DNA from: a virus
Strand: one strand, 5' to 3'
IMG/VR virus record: IMGVR_UViG_3300031578_000322
Location: 1-24,359 of that record
Length of the DNA stretch: 24,359 nucleotides
Both the position numbers and the translations under genes were made by a program. Shown piece after piece: positions 4,246-23,293 of this stretch (positions within the stretch are counted from its first letter, which is position 1; every line of letters starts with the position of its first letter). Under the pieces are notes generated by a model that saw only the letters and a list, made by a program, of their open reading frames with translations, did no database searches and was not told where the DNA came from.

Positions 4246-4252
4246 AAGGAGG
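4246..4252 (+). promoter_or_regulatory. Strong Shine-Dalgarno sequence of the major tail protein gene
   Basis: AAGGAGG lies 6 bases upstream of ATG 4259. It is the strongest SD in the late operon and precedes the gene whose product is needed in the highest copy number, as expected for a tail tube subunit. Confidence 0.75.
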
Positions 4253-4258
4253 TAAATT

Positions 4259-4684
4259 ATGGCAACAGCTGGAGTAGGAACAAAGTTTAGGAGATGGGAT
4301 GGAGCCAATTGGGTTGACATGTCACAAATAAACTCTATTGATGGTCCTAACAAAAGCCGTGATACAATTGATGTTACTTCTTTGGATTCTACAGGAGGAT
4401 ATCGTGAGTTTATTGCTGGGTTTAGGGATGGTGGAACAGTTTCACTCCCTATGAATTTTACTAGAGCAACTTACGAGCAAATGAATGATGATTTCGAAAG
4501 TGATGACATTCAGAATTATGAAATTCTCTTGCCAGATACAGAAAGTACGTCTTTTGAGTTTGAGGCTTTTGTTGTCGAACTTGGACTAGGCATCCCTACT
4601 GACGATAAGATTACAGCTGATGTAAGTCTTAAAGTTAGTGGACAGGTAGTAATTAACTCTGGGTCAGGTTCCAGTGTTGATTAA
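4259..4684 (+). CDS. Major tail tube protein
   Basis: The protein has 141 residues. The opening GVGTKFRRWDGANWVDMSQI, followed by INSIDGPNKSRDTIDVTSLD, is the characteristic start of TP901-1/lambda gpV-like tail tube proteins: a beta strand, then a P-x-x-x-x-x-I-D-V-T-S-L-D loop. FIAGFRDGGTVSLPMNF and the C-terminal ADVSLKVSGQVVI complete the tube fold. It polymerises as hexameric rings around the tape measure. Its strong SD fits high expression. The 61 bases after the gene are AT-rich and contain only a weak ATTATAA/TTATAAT inverted repeat, so I do not call a terminator there. Confidence 0.85.
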   Translation: MATAGVGTKFRRWDGANWVDMSQINSIDGPNKSRDTIDVTSLDSTGGYREFIAGFRDGGTVSLPMNFTRATYEQMNDDFESDDIQNYEILLPDTESTSFEFEAFVVELGLGIPTDDKITADVSLKVSGQVVINSGSGSSVD

Positions 4685-4745: not shown

Positions 4746-5180
4746 ATGGAAAATGTATTAAGTAGAGAAAGTTTATTGAAAAAGGAAGACCTAATCATTA
4801 AAAAAGTTGATTTAGGCAAAGATGAATTTGTGTTTGTTCGTCAAATGACAGGACATGAGAGAGATACGTTTGAACAGTCTCTTATTAAAAAGATAAAAGA
4901 CAACAAAGGTATTGTAACTGCTTTTGAGCAGTCAACAGAGGATTTTAGAGCCAAGCTGGCAGTATGTACTGTATGTGATGAAAAGGGGGTGTTGTTACTT
5001 AAATCAACAGACTATGAACTTTTAAGTCAACGCATGAGTGCAGCTAGACTGGAAAAGATTGTAAATGTCGCACAGAAGTTAAATGCAATTTCGGAAGAGG
5101 ATAAGGAGGAGTTAGTAAAAAACTCCGTAGTCGGCCCAGCCGACAATTCGCCTTCAGACTTTGCAGAGAACTCAAAATAA
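4746..5180 (+). CDS. Tail assembly chaperone, upstream frame (lambda gpG-like)
   Basis: The protein has 144 residues, close to the 140 residues of lambda gpG. It begins MENVLSRESLLKKEDLIIKKVDLGKDEFVFVRQMTGHERD, the usual start of this chaperone family (I-x-x-V-x-x-G-x-V-x-V-R-x-M-x-G-x-E-R). It lies between the tail tube and tape measure genes. No SD is seen before ATG 4746, but the upstream region is AT-rich. Near its end it contains a -1 frameshift site (5117-5123), after which a fraction of ribosomes should enter the next frame and make a 260-residue G-T fusion. Role: keeping the tape measure soluble and recruiting tube subunits. Confidence 0.85.
   Translation: MENVLSRESLLKKEDLIIKKVDLGKDEFVFVRQMTGHERDTFEQSLIKKIKDNKGIVTAFEQSTEDFRAKLAVCTVCDEKGVLLLKSTDYELLSQRMSAARLEKIVNVAQKLNAISEEDKEELVKNSVVGPADNSPSDFAENSK
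5103..5144 (+). promoter_or_regulatory. Programmed -1 ribosomal frameshift signal
   Basis: Three elements stand in order. An SD-like AGGAGG occupies 5104-5109 inside the G frame. A slippery heptamer A AAA AAC at 5117-5123 is in the zero frame (codons GTA AAA AAC, residues 124-126 of G), exactly the X XXY YYZ pattern. After a 6-base spacer, a hairpin with a perfect 6-bp GC-rich stem, GTCGGC/GCCGAC, occupies 5130-5135 and 5139-5144 with loop CCA. The -1 frame is open from 5105 to 5527 and has no ATG at its head. Frameshifting here yields a 126 + 134 = 260 residue GT protein. The architecture resembles the three-part signal of E. coli dnaX. Confidence 0.88.
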
Positions 5181-5527
5181 TACATCCTGACTACTTGTTG
5201 AATTATTTAACAAGTACGCAGTTTAGTGAATGGGAAGCATACGATAGACTTGATCCAATAGGCACTTGGAGAGAAGACTTTAGGTTGGCATATTTAAGTT
5301 CTTTGGTTACAAATCTTACAATATCAGTTCATGGTAAGAAAGGAGCAAAGCATACTACACCAATGGACTTTATGTTAGATTGGACAGGAACGACTAAAGA
5401 ACCTAAGAAACAAAGTGTTGAGGAAATGAAAGAAATTCTTATGGCTTTTGCAAAGAGACAGAATAAGAGTGTAGCTAAGAAAAGAGTAAGTCCACCAGTA
5501 ACACGTTCTAAAGGGAAAAAGACATGA
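5123..5527 (+). CDS. Tail assembly chaperone, frameshifted part (lambda gpT-like, expressed as GT fusion)
   Basis: This is the -1 frame portion, 134 residues after the slip. Reading through gives a segment containing FRLCRELKIIHPDYLLNYLT and then STQFSEWEAYDRLDPIGTWR. HPDYLL...LT..Q..EWEAY..L.PIG is the signature of the gpT-like tail assembly partner. The conserved HPDYLL part lies upstream of the only candidate independent start (TTG at 5195), which would cut it off and has no SD. The fusion is therefore the natural product. The C-terminus is basic (AKKRVSPPVTRSKGKKT) and the stop overlaps the tape measure start (ATGA at 5524-5527). In lambda the GT form recruits the tail tube protein to the tape measure-chaperone complex. 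Confidence 0.82.
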   Translation, partial: LRSRPSRQFAFRLCRELKIIHPDYLLNYLTSTQFSEWEAYDRLDPIGTWREDFRLAYLSSLVTNLTISVHGKKGAKHTTPMDFMLDWTGTTKEPKKQSVEEMKEILMAFAKRQNKSVAKKRVSPPVTRSKGKKT

Positions 5528-8500
5528 ATATAGGGCAACTCATAATTACATTAGGAGCAGATACAACACAGTTGATGGCTGCACAGACAGCGATGCACAC
5601 ATTTTCTAAAAGTACAATCGCTTCTATAAATACAATGTCCCAACGGTTTCGTACTTTTGGGTACTTGGCTACTGCCGCACTTACTGTTCCTATTGTCATG
5701 GCTGGGAAAGCAGCAATGAAAATGTCTATGGAATATGAAGCTTCCTTGTCTAAAGTGATTGGGTTAGTTGGTATAGCAAGAGAACAAGTAAATGCTTGGA
5801 GTGAAGATATTTTAAAAATGGCTCCAGAAGTAGGAAAAAATCCCAAAGAATTAGCTGATGCTTTATACTTTATTACTTCTGCTGGTATTCGTGGGGCAGA
5901 GGCAATGGAAGTATTGGAAATGTCTGCCAAGGCATCCGCTGCCGGATTAGGTGAAACAAAAACGGTAGCTGACCTTGTTACATCTGCAATGAACGCCTAT
6001 GGTATTGCTAATTTAAGTGCCGCTGATGCAACAGACATACTTGTTGCTACCGTAAGAGAAGGAAAGGCAGAAGCTACTGCTTTAGCTTCTACTATGGGAA
6101 TGGTATTACCTATTGCTTCGGCTATGGGAGTTACATTTGACCAGGTTGGTGCGGGAATAGCAGCTATGACACGAACAGGTACTTCTGCTGCTACGGCTTC
6201 TATGCAATTGCGACAAATACTTAATTCTTTAATAAAACCAAGTCATGGAGCAGAAGTTGCTTTGGAAGCAATGAAAACTTCAAGTGCGGAACTTCGTAAA
6301 ACCATACGAGAAGATGGTTTGTTAAAAGCTTTAATGGATATTAATGACTTAACCAAAAAATATGGTGAGACAACAATGGGTAAAGTCTTTCCAAATATTA
6401 GAGCATTGTCTGGGGTGTTAGATATAATGGGAAAGAATTTAGGGGATAACATTACTATATTTGCTAATTTAAAAGATTCTTTGGGATCTTTGGCAAGAGC
6501 TTTTTCAGCAGCTTCTGATACTATGAAGTTCAAATTTAATGTTGCTTCTGCAACTGCTCAGGTGGCTATGAAAAAAATAGGAGATTATGTATTGCAGTTT
6601 ATTTTACCAATATTTGAATGGTTGTCTGGAATATTATCAAAATTATCAAAGTGGTTTGATACTTTAACAGAAGCACAGAGGCGACATGTATTAGTTGCTG
6701 TATTGATTGTGGCTACTTTAGGTCCATTTGCTTTACTTATAAGTCTTATTGGGTATTCTTTATCTGCATTAGCCGTTGCTTATAATGCTGTAACAGCAGC
6801 AGTGTGGAGATTAAATGCGGCAATGGCAATTAATCCGATGACCGCTGCTGTTGGTGCTATCATTTTAATAGCCGCTCACGCATGGTTGAAATATCGTAGT
6901 AGTGTTAAAGAGGCTTCTGATGCTCAATACACAATGAACGAAGAGTTAAAAAGAGGTAAAGATTTGATTGTTGAATTAAATAAACTTGAAAAACAGTCAA
7001 AAGCTGCGGAATTAATGAGTTTAGAACAAACAGGAGGTTTGAGATCTAAATACAAACAGGCTTTAGTTGAGGAACAACAATTAACAGTAGAGCTTGCCGC
7101 TGAAGCCCTTAAAAGAATAGAGGGAGATAAAAAAGTTGCAGATTTAAGGGAGAAAATAGCAAATGCCACCAATGACAAATACAAAGCGGGTTTAATTAAA
7201 CGACTTCAAGCAATGAAGGAGTATATTACATCTGATCTTTCATTAGAATATGAGGAAAGTAAAAAACGAGTTGCTATTATAGAAAAAGCACAAGCAAGGA
7301 TAGATGCTATTTTTGATAAAAAAAATACGGCTAATTCCATTGCAGAACAGTGGTTGGAAAATCAACGTGAAATTGATGCTATCTTACTTGATTTAACAGA
7401 ATCATTAACACAGATAAATAGTCTTTCTACAATAATGAAAGATTTGGGGATAGAATATCACATAACTGAAGAAAAAGCAAGTCTATTTTTAGAAACCATA
7501 CAAAAATTAATAGAAGCCGGATTATCACCTCAGAGTGAAGAAGTTCAAAAAATAATAAATGATTATAAAGCATTGGGTGTAGAATTATTAAAAGAAGATT
7601 CAATTACAGAAAAATATACGAAAACCTTAGAGGAACAAAATAAAGAATTAGATAGAATAGAAAAAAATAGAATTAAAGGTGGGATTGCTCCTGATTACAA
7701 AAAATTATTTATGCGTACAGGACAAAGTGGTGGTGGTGCGAGTATTTGGAATCCGGGAGAACAGGACAAATTTGCAACATTTAATTTGCAATTACAAAAT
7801 GATTTAGCTGCCATTACTAAGAAAGAAGAAATATTAGGTAATGCTTTTAATCAGGGTAGGGCAAATGTTCAATTATACACAAATGCCATTAATTATCTGA
7901 TAGAAAGTTTTGGGGTAGGTAATCCGGTTATTGATGAAGCTATTGAAAAATATAAAATGGCATTGGATGCTCAGGAAGGACTTATAAACAGGGAAAATGC
8001 AATAAGTACGTTGCAGGCTGCTTTTACTGATTTCTTTAGCGTGACAAAGGAAGGATTTGAGAATTTTGGAGAGTATGTAAAACAATGGGCTTTAAATGTT
8101 TTATATGCTTTTGAAAATTTAATCGCTGGAATTATTTCTAAAAAGATAATAGACGTTCTTTTCCCTACCGCAAAAATTGCAGCCACAACAGCAGCTACAA
8201 CAGTTGCCACAGCAGCAGAAACAGCAAGAGGAGCAGCAACGGCAGCTACAATTCCTGGAACACTATTAGCAAGTGCCGCCGTAGATCAATTAGCAATATC
8301 AACAGCGGCTTTGGCAGCAGCATGGGTTCCTTTTCCTGGAACCATAGCAGCAGTGGCAGCAAATGTAGGAGGTGTGGTTGCCGCAATAATGGCAGCAAAA
8401 GCAACGAAGGGATTGTCAAGTATAGCAGGAATGGCTGAAGGTGGAATTGTTCCACCCGGATTTTCAAATGATTCTTATCCAGCAAGGTTGTCATCTGGAG

Positions 8501-8634
8501 AAGCCGTAATCCCAGCACCAAAGGCTTTATCATCTGCTGGGTTAGGAATGCAAGGACAGGTTGTATTTAGAATTGAGGGGAGAGAGTTAGTTGGTATTTT
8601 GCAGAAGATGGACAAAATAGGAAATAGCTTTTAG
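5524..8634 (+). CDS. Tail tape measure protein (TP901-type core)
   Basis: The protein has 1036 residues. The first 300 residues hold the TP901 core: LIITLGADTTQLMAAQTAM, MEYEASLSKVIGLVG, KELADALYFITSAG, SAMNAYG, FDQVGAGIAAMTRTG and SMQLRQILN. A hydrophobic block at about 385-460 (LVAVLIVATLGPFALLISLI and on) could insert in the host membrane during DNA delivery. Residues 480-720 are coiled-coil-rich and charged. Residues 870-965 are an Ala-rich hydrophobic stretch. The end, AEGGIVPPGFSNDSYPARLS-S-GEAVIP, is the typical tape measure C-terminal motif. By the rough rule of 1.5 Angstrom per residue, the tail would be about 150 nm long. The start overlaps the chaperone stop (ATGA). Confidence 0.95.
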   Translation: MNIGQLIITLGADTTQLMAAQTAMHTFSKSTIASINTMSQRFRTFGYLATAALTVPIVMAGKAAMKMSMEYEASLSKVIGLVGIAREQVNAWSEDILKMAPEVGKNPKELADALYFITSAGIRGAEAMEVLEMSAKASAAGLGETKTVADLVTSAMNAYGIANLSAADATDILVATVREGKAEATALASTMGMVLPIASAMGVTFDQVGAGIAAMTRTGTSAATASMQLRQILNSLIKPSHGAEVALEAMKTSSAELRKTIREDGLLKALMDINDLTKKYGETTMGKVFPNIRALSGVLDIMGKNLGDNITIFANLKDSLGSLARAFSAASDTMKFKFNVASATAQVAMKKIGDYVLQFILPIFEWLSGILSKLSKWFDTLTEAQRRHVLVAVLIVATLGPFALLISLIGYSLSALAVAYNAVTAAVWRLNAAMAINPMTAAVGAIILIAAHAWLKYRSSVKEASDAQYTMNEELKRGKDLIVELNKLEKQSKAAELMSLEQTGGLRSKYKQALVEEQQLTVELAAEALKRIEGDKKVADLREKIANATNDKYKAGLIKRLQAMKEYITSDLSLEYEESKKRVAIIEKAQARIDAIFDKKNTANSIAEQWLENQREIDAILLDLTESLTQINSLSTIMKDLGIEYHITEEKASLFLETIQKLIEAGLSPQSEEVQKIINDYKALGVELLKEDSITEKYTKTLEEQNKELDRIEKNRIKGGIAPDYKKLFMRTGQSGGGASIWNPGEQDKFATFNLQLQNDLAAITKKEEILGNAFNQGRANVQLYTNAINYLIESFGVGNPVIDEAIEKYKMALDAQEGLINRENAISTLQAAFTDFFSVTKEGFENFGEYVKQWALNVLYAFENLIAGIISKKIIDVLFPTAKIAATTAATTVATAAETARGAATAATIPGTLLASAAVDQLAISTAALAAAWVPFPGTIAAVAANVGGVVAAIMAAKATKGLSSIAGMAEGGIVPPGFSNDSYPARLSSGEAVIPAPKALSSAGLGMQGQVVFRIEGRELVGILQKMDKIGNSF

Positions 8635-18995: not shown

Positions 18996-19232
18996 TTATT
19001 CTATTAGATCATTAATTATTATACCGTATTTTTCAAGTAGCTCGTCGAATCTTTTATACACAAGATCAATAGCTTCAAATTGGTCCAAATCATTAACTTG
19101 TGATTCTAATTCTTTCCTGCTATTCTGTGAAAACTCCCAAATGACAAGAGTCATAGCAAGCGACTTGTGACATCGTTTCAATGCCATGTCGTCATCATGA
19201 TTGTCAAGATTAAACTTTAATATCCCTTTCAT
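18996..19232 (-). CDS. Small conserved phage protein
   Basis: The protein has 78 residues. MKGILKFNLDNHDDDMALKR, CHKSLAMTLVIWEFSQNSRK has the shape of a known phage family: an N-terminal F-N-L strand, an acidic D-x-D-D-x turn, a helix ending in VIWEF/VVWDL, then a charged C-terminal helix (FDELLEKYGI). The gene's start overlaps the stop of the Rad50 C-terminal half by one base (19232). Function unknown. Confidence 0.6.
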   Translation of the reverse strand: MKGILKFNLDNHDDDMALKRCHKSLAMTLVIWEFSQNSRKELESQVNDLDQFEAIDLVYKRFDELLEKYGIIINDLIE

Positions 19233-19846
19233 TAGTTTATTTCTTTTACTTTACTTTTCCCTTTTCTAATACTAACTTCAAAAGTTTTATCAGCGTAACT
19301 TGCCAGTACTGGTTCATGCGTGACAATTATAAATTGAATCCCAAGTTTGTCTGATATTTCTTTTACCATTTGTGATGCTTTTTCCTGATAGTCTTCGCTT
19401 AAATATCTAAATGGCTCATCCAATATAATAGTATTCCTTGTCCTTGGCATTGCCATACTCCAACTTGCTATTCTTAAAGCAAATGTAGCAACATCAACCG
19501 CCCCTACACCACTCGCAGTTAAAGGATCTACTTTCATTCCATCTCTAACAAAAAATAAATCACATTCTGTTTTATTTCTGCGTTGTACAAACTCCACTTC
19601 CAGTGTGTAAGGATCAAGGAATACAGCCTCCAATGCAAGTGAAGTAATATCGGAAATGTGGAATTGTAGTTGTTTTTGTGTTTCCATTCCTACAATTCTA
19701 ACGATTTCTCTTGCTTGTTCATGCTTTCGCAAAGAACGTTTTTTATCTTTTAATTCCTCTTGGAGTTTTAAAAGAGACTGTTCTATTTGGAACTTTTGTC
19801 CTTTCTGTTGTTCAAGTGTGTTCCTAAGTAGTTGAATTGTCATCAT
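19232..19846 (-). CDS. Rad50/SbcC-like ATPase, C-terminal half (signature and Walker B)
   Basis: The protein has 204 residues, starting at a tandem ATG (19846 or 19843). An N-terminal coiled coil (about 10-60, LEQQKGQKFQIEQSLLKLQE) leads to a lobe with EVEFVQRRNKTECDLFFVRD. ASGVGAVDVATFALRIASWS at 111-130 is the degenerate signature region, NTIILDEPF with D143-E144 is Walker B, and IIVTHE with H177 is the H-switch. There is no Walker A, so this cannot be an ATPase alone. The missing P-loop half is encoded at 22244-23293. Together with the Mre11-like nuclease it should form a DNA-end processing complex. The upstream end overlaps the 60-residue gene by 23 bases. Confidence 0.85.
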   Translation of the reverse strand: MMTIQLLRNTLEQQKGQKFQIEQSLLKLQEELKDKKRSLRKHEQAREIVRIVGMETQKQLQFHISDITSLALEAVFLDPYTLEVEFVQRRNKTECDLFFVRDGMKVDPLTASGVGAVDVATFALRIASWSMAMPRTRNTIILDEPFRYLSEDYQEKASQMVKEISDKLGIQFIIVTHEPVLASYADKTFEVSIRKGKSKVKEIN

Positions 19847-21022: not shown

Positions 21023-21163
21023 TTATTTTATTTTTATATGTTTTTCTTTACATTGCTCACTACAAAAATGTAACTCATTCCCTTTCTTACTGGTAACTCT
21101 AATTAAAAGTCCTTTGCATACTTTTCGGCAATGGTCACATACTACACAATTTAATTTTCGCAC
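21023..21163 (-). CDS. 46-residue zinc-finger microprotein (GTG start)
   Basis: A frame from GTG 21163 to TAA 21023-21025, between the Mre11-like gene and the next one. The GTG shares a base with the TAG of the Mre11-like gene (TAGTG), so translation is probably coupled. Reading MRKLNCVVCDHCRKVCKGLL, then FCSEQCKEKHIK: CVVCDHC and FCSEQC together give a C-x2-C-x2-C...C-x3-C pattern resembling MYM/TRASH-type zinc fingers. It is one of several such proteins in the operon. Confidence 0.65.
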   Translation of the reverse strand: MRKLNCVVCDHCRKVCKGLLIRVTSKKGNELHFCSEQCKEKHIKIK

Positions 21164-22032
21164 TACTCTAAATTTTTATAAATTATTTCTTTTACCTGTT
21201 CTCTTACCTTATTTGCATTAAAAAATATTTCTAAGTTGTCTTCAAAACTCATTTTAGCTTTCCAGTCATCATTTAACTTGCCTACAAAGGCATCTATGCG
21301 GTGATCTCTTTCTTCTTTGCGTTCAATATGTTCCCTGCTTATCACCCCTTCTTGTATAGGCAAATTTATCCATTCAATGCTATTGTCTTCAGCATACCAC
21401 AAAGCTACTCTTGGCTGATAGTCTATCTGATCTGCTACCTGTCGTGTCAGATTGCCTGGATTTACTAATCTACGTCCTTTGTATTCTACTGTAAAACTTG
21501 TATGATTATCTCCTGTAACTATTAGATCAAATTGAGGATATTTCCTCAATATTCCTTCTGCCATTCCTCCACTTGCTCCTGGAAATGGTTTTTGTAAATA
21601 TGTGAGGTGGTGCCAAACAAGCATACTTAATGGTAATTGACTATGGCAAATATGCACTGGTTCTTGTCCCCAATGAGTACCATTACATACGGTTAATTTT
21701 TGAGCCACATCTAAATTATGAATTCCACTTTTAAAAAGTAAATCTAAATTATGTTGTGGTAAATCATGTTGTCCATAAATAGTATAAAATCTATCTGGTA
21801 TATGTATTATTGCCATTGTTAATAACCATGGACTTGGTTTCCAATGATGAAATAAATCACCTGCATGAACTACTGAGCATTTATATTTAGCCTGCAAATC
21901 CTTTATAAATTGAACGGCATCCCATTGTTCCTTCTGAAAATCTCCTGTAAAGCAAGTGGGAGTATCCTCACGAAGGTGCCAATCGGAAGTCAAGATTGCT
22001 GAAACTTTTTTATTTACTTTTGTTCTTTCCAT
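21163..22032 (-). CDS. Mre11/SbcD-like nuclease (metallophosphoesterase)
   Basis: The protein has 289 residues. Metal-binding motifs appear in order: LTSDWHLRED with D17 and H19, VHAGDLFHHW with D59, IYGQHDLPQH with Q88, H89 and D90 (GQHD in place of GNHD), VWHHLTY with H141-H142, TGDNHTSF with D175, H177 (GDNHT in place of GHTH), and the NPGNLTRQ stretch typical of the SbcD/Mre11 family. It should be a manganese-dependent double-strand exonuclease/endonuclease that works with the Rad50-like ATPase. The gene lies between the two Rad50 halves on the same strand. Its stop overlaps the zinc-finger microprotein GTG. Confidence 0.88.
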   Translation of the reverse strand: MERTKVNKKVSAILTSDWHLREDTPTCFTGDFQKEQWDAVQFIKDLQAKYKCSVVHAGDLFHHWKPSPWLLTMAIIHIPDRFYTIYGQHDLPQHNLDLLFKSGIHNLDVAQKLTVCNGTHWGQEPVHICHSQLPLSMLVWHHLTYLQKPFPGASGGMAEGILRKYPQFDLIVTGDNHTSFTVEYKGRRLVNPGNLTRQVADQIDYQPRVALWYAEDNSIEWINLPIQEGVISREHIERKEERDHRIDAFVGKLNDDWKAKMSFEDNLEIFFNANKVREQVKEIIYKNLE

Positions 22033-22243: not shown

Positions 22244-23293
22244 CTATCTTTTAATTATTTGACCACATAAAATACAAGTACTGCCAACAGGCATAGCTTC
22301 GTCTAATTTAGCTTGTAAGGTGCTTTTTAAAGCAGTTTTACTATTTAGCATAGTAGTTGTATTGTTTATAGTAGAAAGTAGCTTAGACAAGCTAATTTGC
22401 GTTGTTTCTAAACTATCTAACTCCTCATACAATTCCAACACAGCCTTTAGTGGTTTTTCAACAGTAACAATTTTATTTGCTTTTTCAATATCTTCTCTTA
22501 CCTTTATAATATCCTCAATGTCATTCCACAAACTACCACCATCAATTTCAAGGTCTTCTTTCTCATCCTTCAGTTTAAAAATATTATCAAGTGGTTTTTC
22601 AAATTTTAAAACATTTGATGCCTTTTCAATATCAGTTTGCAACATTGTTATTTTTGCTACAAGGACTTGAAGTTTTCTACGTGTATCTACTGAATTGATA
22701 AATTTCTTATCCATTTCTTCAAGCACCTCAACTTCAATTTCAAACTTTTCCAAGTGTTCAAACTGTTTCAGTTGTTCTTTGTAGTTTCCCTCTTGTCCTT
22801 CCTGATACTTAATATCATTTGTCAGTTGCCTTATACTGCTGTTTATGGTTTGTGTAGCTCTATCTATTTTATCTAACCTTGCAACTTTGTTGAAATACTG
22901 AGCAACTGCTCCTGGTGTTTCACTTAAAAGAAACGGTGCATCGAGTTGCATTTGTAGGTTCACATCTGACAGGTTAAGTGCCTGTACAATTTCATCAGGA
23001 ACAGTTGTACCAAATGCCTTGAAATGTAAGTCTCCTAAGATGTATTCCTGTTCTTTGTCTTTTTTCTTTACAACATGAGCATCATCTGTAAATAATTCAA
23101 CTCTTGTTTCACCACCCCAATGAGAACGCATTTCATCACCGGATGGTTTATGAAAGGCCAACCACCGCAAAGCTCTGATAATGGCTGTCTTTCCACTGTC
23201 TGAAGAACCTACAATAATATTAACTCCTTTATCAAATTCAAGATAATTGTCTTCGTGGCTTTGAAAGTTTTGTATTTCAAGTGATTTAATCAT
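22244..23293 (-). CDS. Rad50/SbcC-like ATPase, N-terminal half (Walker A and zinc hook)
   Basis: The protein has 349 residues. The start IKSLEIQNFQSHEDNYLEFD is the usual SMC/Rad50 opening; IIVGSSDSGKT at 26-36 is Walker A. SHWGGETRVELF and LQMQLDAPFLLSETPGAVAQ match the lobe and Q-loop region. Residues about 180-330 are coiled coil. The protein ends TCILCGQIIKR, so the CxxC zinc hook (C340, C343) is at the extreme C-terminus. It lacks signature and Walker B, which are in the 204-residue protein at 19232-19846. The full arm is therefore encoded in pieces. The total of the two halves, 553 residues, is close to the 560 of T4 gp46. It starts 8 bases inside the upstream 76-residue gene. Confidence 0.88.
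   Translation of the reverse strand: MIKSLEIQNFQSHEDNYLEFDKGVNIIVGSSDSGKTAIIRALRWLAFHKPSGDEMRSHWGGETRVELFTDDAHVVKKKDKEQEYILGDLHFKAFGTTVPDEIVQALNLSDVNLQMQLDAPFLLSETPGAVAQYFNKVARLDKIDRATQTINSSIRQLTNDIKYQEGQEGNYKEQLKQFEHLEKFEIEVEVLEEMDKKFINSVDTRRKLQVLVAKITMLQTDIEKASNVLKFEKPLDNIFKLKDEKEDLEIDGGSLWNDIEDIIKVREDIEKANKIVTVEKPLKAVLELYEELDSLETTQISLSKLLSTINNTTTMLNSKTALKSTLQAKLDEAMPVGSTCILCGQIIKR

Follow-up and report, generated by a model that had tools for sequence, protein, structure and literature searches.

A conserved slippery heptamer between an SD-like element and a compact hairpin points to programmed -1 frameshifting at the G/T tail chaperone junction of an uncultivated phage group

For phage lambda, the -1 frameshift that yields the tail chaperones G and GT was reportedly worked out by Xu, Hendrix and Duda; the lambda slippery heptamer is GGGAAAG, and we found the same heptamer in phage mEp390. 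Frameshifting of this kind is already known across tailed phages, and the lambda case, which requires about 1 GT per 30 G, has been reviewed (PMC5009743). By analogy with lambda, G would bind the tape measure protein and the T part would recruit tail tube subunits, roles for which a low GT:G ratio would be wanted. Signals that pair an SD-like element with a hairpin are also known, from dnaX and IS elements. Among phages, conserved hairpins were reported in three of five clusters, one of them being judged relevant (PMC4066793). No publication on the combination described below was found in the literature searched, which left most subscription journals outside its scope; what appears to be new is a conserved SD, heptamer and hairpin combination in an uncultivated group, the shortness of its stem, the replacement of one hairpin by another and the presence of an SD in SD-poor genomes.

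The window analysed is an IMG/VR virus record of 24,359 nt. Profile searches gave the local gene order tail terminator, tail tube, G, T and tape measure, and the features of this region, all on the + strand, are as follows.

4247-4252, +, SD AGGAGG of the tail tube gene, conserved in 95% of loci
4259..4684, +, tail tube protein gene (PF16460, E 1.6e-11)
4746..5180, +, G, tail assembly chaperone of 144 aa, the zero-frame product (phrog_344, E 7e-16), flanked by the tail tube and tape measure genes (profile searches)
5104..5109, +, SD-like AGGAGG, 7 nt 5' of the heptamer (sequence; AAG GAG codon excess)
5117..5123, +, slippery heptamer A_AAA_AAC in the G frame, read GTA AAA AAC (sequence; 189 of 190 related loci)
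5117..5527, +, T domain in the -1 frame (PF06223, Phage_tail_T, Minor tail protein T, E 1e-16)
join(4746..5123,5123..5527), +, predicted GT fusion of 260 aa, T lacking a start codon of its own before HPDYLL
5130..5144, +, 6-bp hairpin, 6 nt 3' of the heptamer, with arms GTCGGC (5130-5135) and GCCGAC (5139-5144) around the loop CCA (covariation, parsimony, codon choice)
5524..8634, +, tape measure protein gene (PF10145, E 1.5e-27; tape measure PHROGs)

Elsewhere in the window, a glycosyltransferase gene and a sulfotransferase-like gene lie at 559-2543, upstream of the neck and tail genes. An SbcC/RecN-like ATPase is apparently split between separate genes, one for its N-terminal part (22244-23293) and one for a part resembling its C terminus (19232-19846), with a metallophosphoesterase gene between the two (19232-19846, 21163-22032 and 22244-23293 for the trio, - strand).

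Several marks of a lambda-type G/GT system are found at this locus: a gene pair flanked by tail tube and tape measure, a predicted -1 shift near the end of G, the G and T profiles, a conserved -1 heptamer, and a T domain which has no start of its own and is homologous to lambda T (PF06223). It differs from lambda in the heptamer, which is A_AAA_AAC, and in the conserved SD-like element and hairpin. These two additions are shared with E. coli dnaX, where an SD-like element, a heptamer with six A and a downstream stem-loop are likewise combined and the hairpin is spaced by 5 nt as against 6 here. The dnaX heptamer, A_AAA_AAG, is however much stronger, its SD stands at 10 nt rather than 7-8 nt, its stem has 11 bp rather than 6, and its shift gives the shorter product whereas the G/T shift would give the longer. 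The G/T junction of Moraxella phage Mcat20 also has A_AAA_AAC followed by a hairpin, of 8 bp, and a homologous T domain, but it has no strong SD, the hairpin and its spacing are different, and the annotation marks no frameshift. Among the distant isolates examined, A_AAA_AAC lies near the end of G in Moraxella, Acinetobacter and Psychrobacter phages and GGGAAAC or GGGAAAG in Streptomyces and E. coli phages; some of these isolates have a downstream hairpin and none has a strong SD. Finally, the prfB gene of Bacteroidia carries a perfect SD-like element at its frameshift site in bacteria that hardly initiate via SD, although this is a +1 shift at a stop codon of a host gene, with no hairpin described (PMC8710568).

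A sequence-only reading of this DNA had described an AGGAGG, an in-frame A_AAA_AAC and a GTCGGC/GCCGAC hairpin separated by 7 and 6 bases, and all three were found with these spacings, spanning 5104-5144; the AGGAGG ends 8 nt before base 5118. The complete string of SD, spacer and heptamer occurs once in the window and in 0/100 shuffles, while its parts taken singly are not rare (13 copies of AGGAGG, 9 of AAAAAAC). The same reading held that the hairpin stands out, and indeed no other stem in the 24-kb window reaches 6 bp with 5 or more GC pairs and a loop of 3-8; 0.05% of 21-mers match its folding quality. The hairpin criteria of PMC4066793 ask for a start 4-10 nt after the motif, a GC first pair and at least 7.6 kcal/mol; here the spacing is 6 nt, the first pair is G-C and the energy is -9.8 kcal/mol, and the compact stem, at 15 nt, is shorter than the 17-140 nt that the same criteria specify. 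Because the folding z-score of the 64-nt region, calculated for the single sequence, is only -1.7, we sought comparative evidence, and this proved much stronger.

Related loci were collected in five scans, four over viral contigs and the fifth over genome contigs, giving 190 loci with both G and T, some of which are overlapping pieces of one contig, and 106 distinct sites. All 190 loci have T in the -1 frame relative to G; 189 carry A_AAA_AAC as the heptamer, and the remaining one carries A_AAA_AAT. The proposal that a -1 signal joins the tail chaperone genes finds strong support in the comparison. On this comparative basis we consider it very likely that these phages use programmed -1 ribosomal frameshifting like that of lambda G/GT, with stimulators both upstream and downstream of the slip site, such that G and a smaller amount of GT would be made from one start. 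Slippage of RNA polymerase on the A-run, ribosomes not being involved, would also produce a fusion, and such slippage can be stimulated by a nascent RNA hairpin (PMC5009743). In 104/106 sites, however, the run is exactly six A; it is invariably followed by C and invariably in the X_XXY_YYZ phase, and the hairpin lies 3' of it, whereas a polymerase-stimulating hairpin is proposed to form behind the run. Polymerase slippage usually needs A-runs longer than six, and taken together these features make a transcriptional origin of the fusion extremely improbable.

The frame of T itself speaks to whether T could be a separate protein, started internally or by coupling, with AGGAGG as its SD. This element does precede the T frame, which is closed by a TAA at 5102-5104 and then open to the stop at 5525-5527, and the window offers a TTG at 5195. 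That TTG is the first ATG, GTG or TTG in the -1 frame, but it lies ~85 nt off, within the conserved HPDYLL, a stretch that the -1 frame had been noted to supply, and no such codon is found at SD distance. Moreover, 98/106 sites have no ATG, GTG or TTG between the upstream stop of the T frame and the HPD motif, which argues against separate initiation, and the T residues KKLRSRPSRQF are conserved 5' of any start codon; a separately initiated T is almost certainly not the explanation. The ribosomal frameshift, by contrast, would fuse the T domain to the first 126 residues of G. In eight relatives (L041, L086, L108, L112, L129, L166, L180 and L200) G ends right after the heptamer, with TAA or TGA next, so that the tail of G seems dispensable; one of the eight carries A_AAA_AAT.

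The hairpin retains at least 5/6 pairs at the same six-nt spacing in 74/106 sites. Its two variable pairs each fall at the third position of T codons, the wobble position of the -1 frame, with CG, GC, UA and AU variants for pair (47,59) and GC, AU, UA, CG and GU types for pair (50,56). The covariation score is 0.263 against 0.076 when shuffled, and on a G+T tree, from which the residues encoding the signal had been left out, parsimony infers 12 and 23 paired-to-paired double changes, about 35 in all. RNAalifold predicted no structure from the alignment, probably because stem-less sites and alternative hairpins break the consensus, and we therefore relied on the tree and on counting of named structures.

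Since the near-invariant pairs coincide with the T residues RPxRQ, the stem might be merely a by-product of this motif, kept without selection on the RNA: four of the six pairs are partly fixed by the T codons CGN CCN .. CGN CAR, and 17/106 sites have no significant hairpin. Arginine can equally be encoded by AGR, yet the stem uses CGN in 77/84 and 76/86 cases where ~38 would be expected from each locus's own usage (~90% against ~45%), indicating that codon choice keeps the stem. The covariation at T-frame wobble positions and the poorer folding of T-synonymous recodings relative to natural sites (median z -2.0) point the same way, as does the behaviour of sites that have lost the compact stem: 15 of these 32 fold significantly better than T-synonymous recodings and have acquired another stable stem, mostly longer but with its 5' start at about the same position. 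At least 5 pairs are also kept in 6/8 of the sites where G stops after the heptamer and the region no longer encodes G. A by-product of coding is thus very unlikely, and the comparison identifies the hairpin as a real RNA structure selected beyond protein coding.

Selection at the nucleotide level is also evident, by codon comparison, for the SD-like element. The Lys-Glu pair before the heptamer is encoded AAG GAG in 62/85 sites as against 8.6% elsewhere in the same loci (p 5e-47, pooled, related sites being counted as independent), and in the 20 SD-poor loci AAG GAG is used in 13/16 as against 4.2% of Lys-Glu pairs, related sites again being counted as independent. In 66 sites the distance from the end of GGAG to the heptamer is 8 nt. 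Single-site significance is weak because Asp-Lys-Glu codons resemble an SD, the per-site synonymous null giving p below 0.05 in only 14/106 sites. The element could accordingly be a by-product of encoding Asp-Lys-Glu-Glu, inert where the anti-SD is occluded, leaving only the heptamer and perhaps the hairpin to matter. Such codons yield an SD-like string by chance fairly often, 40/106 sites have no strong SD, and F. johnsoniae ribosomes generally fail at SD recognition (PMC8710568). Set against this are the codon excess, in SD-poor loci as elsewhere, and the near-perfect SD that the same phages keep at their tail tube gene, which implies that SD recognition may work there; we regard an inert element as possible but unlikely. 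The SD and the compact hairpin tend to occur together (Fisher p 2e-5), an association that is not significant on the tree. The conservation check in related phages favours heptamer, hairpin and SD alike; given the sites that have no significant hairpin or no strong SD, the full set is not obligatory.

To call the signal a textbook case was nevertheless an overstatement, given how little most of these genomes use SD at gene starts. In the window an SD precedes 11% of gene starts, with an anti-SD energy no better than the control; two relatives, G001 and G006, reach 2% and 49%, and two isolated Bacteroidota phages 0-2%. Gene starts are preceded by A at -3 and around -12, the arrangement also reported for F. 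johnsoniae (PMC6847099). Several relatives encode signal peptides ending in AQ, and DUF5675 was found, among 14 control genomes, only in the Bacteroides genome. An AQ end is a Bacteroidota habit, and together these features suggest that the host of most members is probably a member of the Bacteroidota. The best terminase matches are Cellulophaga and Croceibacter phages; capsid and portal matches point elsewhere, and MAG contigs with relatives are labelled Firmicutes, Gallionellaceae, Clostridiales, Ralstonia or Moraxella. A phage-encoded bS21, as a possible way to free the anti-SD, was not found in 13 records, some of them fragments.

Against this background, 95% of loci, and 84% of the SD-poor set, carry a near-perfect SD at the tail tube gene (AAAGGAGG ahead of the ATG, window 4247-4259), as though this signal were kept for the tail protein made in greatest abundance. 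Most genes neighbouring it have almost no SD. Most of these genomes, then, have hardly any SD at their gene starts but retain a strong one in two places, the shift site and the tail tube gene, and its retention at the latter even in the SD-poor set cautions against calling the hosts SD-blind. Two loci (L152 and L169) have no near-perfect SD at the tail tube gene and keep the strong SD at the shift site. In the SD-rich loci L044, L045, L048, L205 and L212, both the strong SD and the hairpin are absent from the shift site. By eye this suggests an inverse relation between stimulators there and the frequency of SDs at gene starts; with few tree-based independent pairs, the relation is not significant.

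In the proposed mechanism, tRNA-Lys on AAA and tRNA-Asn on AAC would slip back one base onto AAA AAA, after which the ribosome would continue with CTC CGT AGT. The hairpin 6 nt downstream may slow or tension the ribosome at the slip site, and the upstream AGGAGG may add to the effect by pairing with the 16S anti-SD of the elongating ribosome, an action made uncertain by the fact that the probable hosts hardly initiate via SD. One tentative idea, which we rate as somewhat improbable, is that ribosomes of SD-poor hosts (probably Bacteroidota) still use SD/anti-SD pairing in elongation, the pause at the short hairpin freeing the occluded anti-SD so that the stimulators act jointly; pausing followed by pairing has been proposed for prfB in F. 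johnsoniae (PMC8710568). The expectation that the signal would be efficient is doubtful. The site is A_AAA_AAC and not a highly shift-prone heptamer such as A_AAA_AAG, and A_AAA_AAC is of low efficiency in E. coli (PMC4066793, PMC5009743), a weakness that may not extend to the host. The stem is half the length of those of HIV (12 bp) and dnaX (11 bp), and most pausing at the HIV stem is lost once it is shortened to 6 bp (PMC8861025). A weak heptamer and a weak stem with an SD would agree better with frameshifting at a few percent, the range that lambda needs (30:1, PMC5009743), than with the high level of dnaX.

The junction peptide also needs revision. VKKLRSR had been put forward, but it would arise only from slippage before AAC decoding; should the tandem slip follow the decoding of AAC, VKNLRSR is the predicted main junction. 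Glu-C should give LVKNLRSRPSRQFAFRLCRE across the junction for the tandem slip and LVKKLRSRPSRQFAFRLCRE for the other version, while trypsin is predicted to cut both into fragments too small for detection.

The 106 distinct sites, with their compensatory changes, hairpin swaps and losses, constitute a natural comparative data set that bears on what sets low-level -1 frameshifting in phage tail assembly. They show selection acting on a stem of 6 bp with a 3-nt loop, half as long as the stimulators characterised in HIV and dnaX, and they offer a defined construct with which to ask if an internal SD can be paired by ribosomes of SD-poor bacteria during elongation. If the tentative idea above is true, pausing followed by pairing would operate here in a -1 signal conserved throughout a large group of phages.
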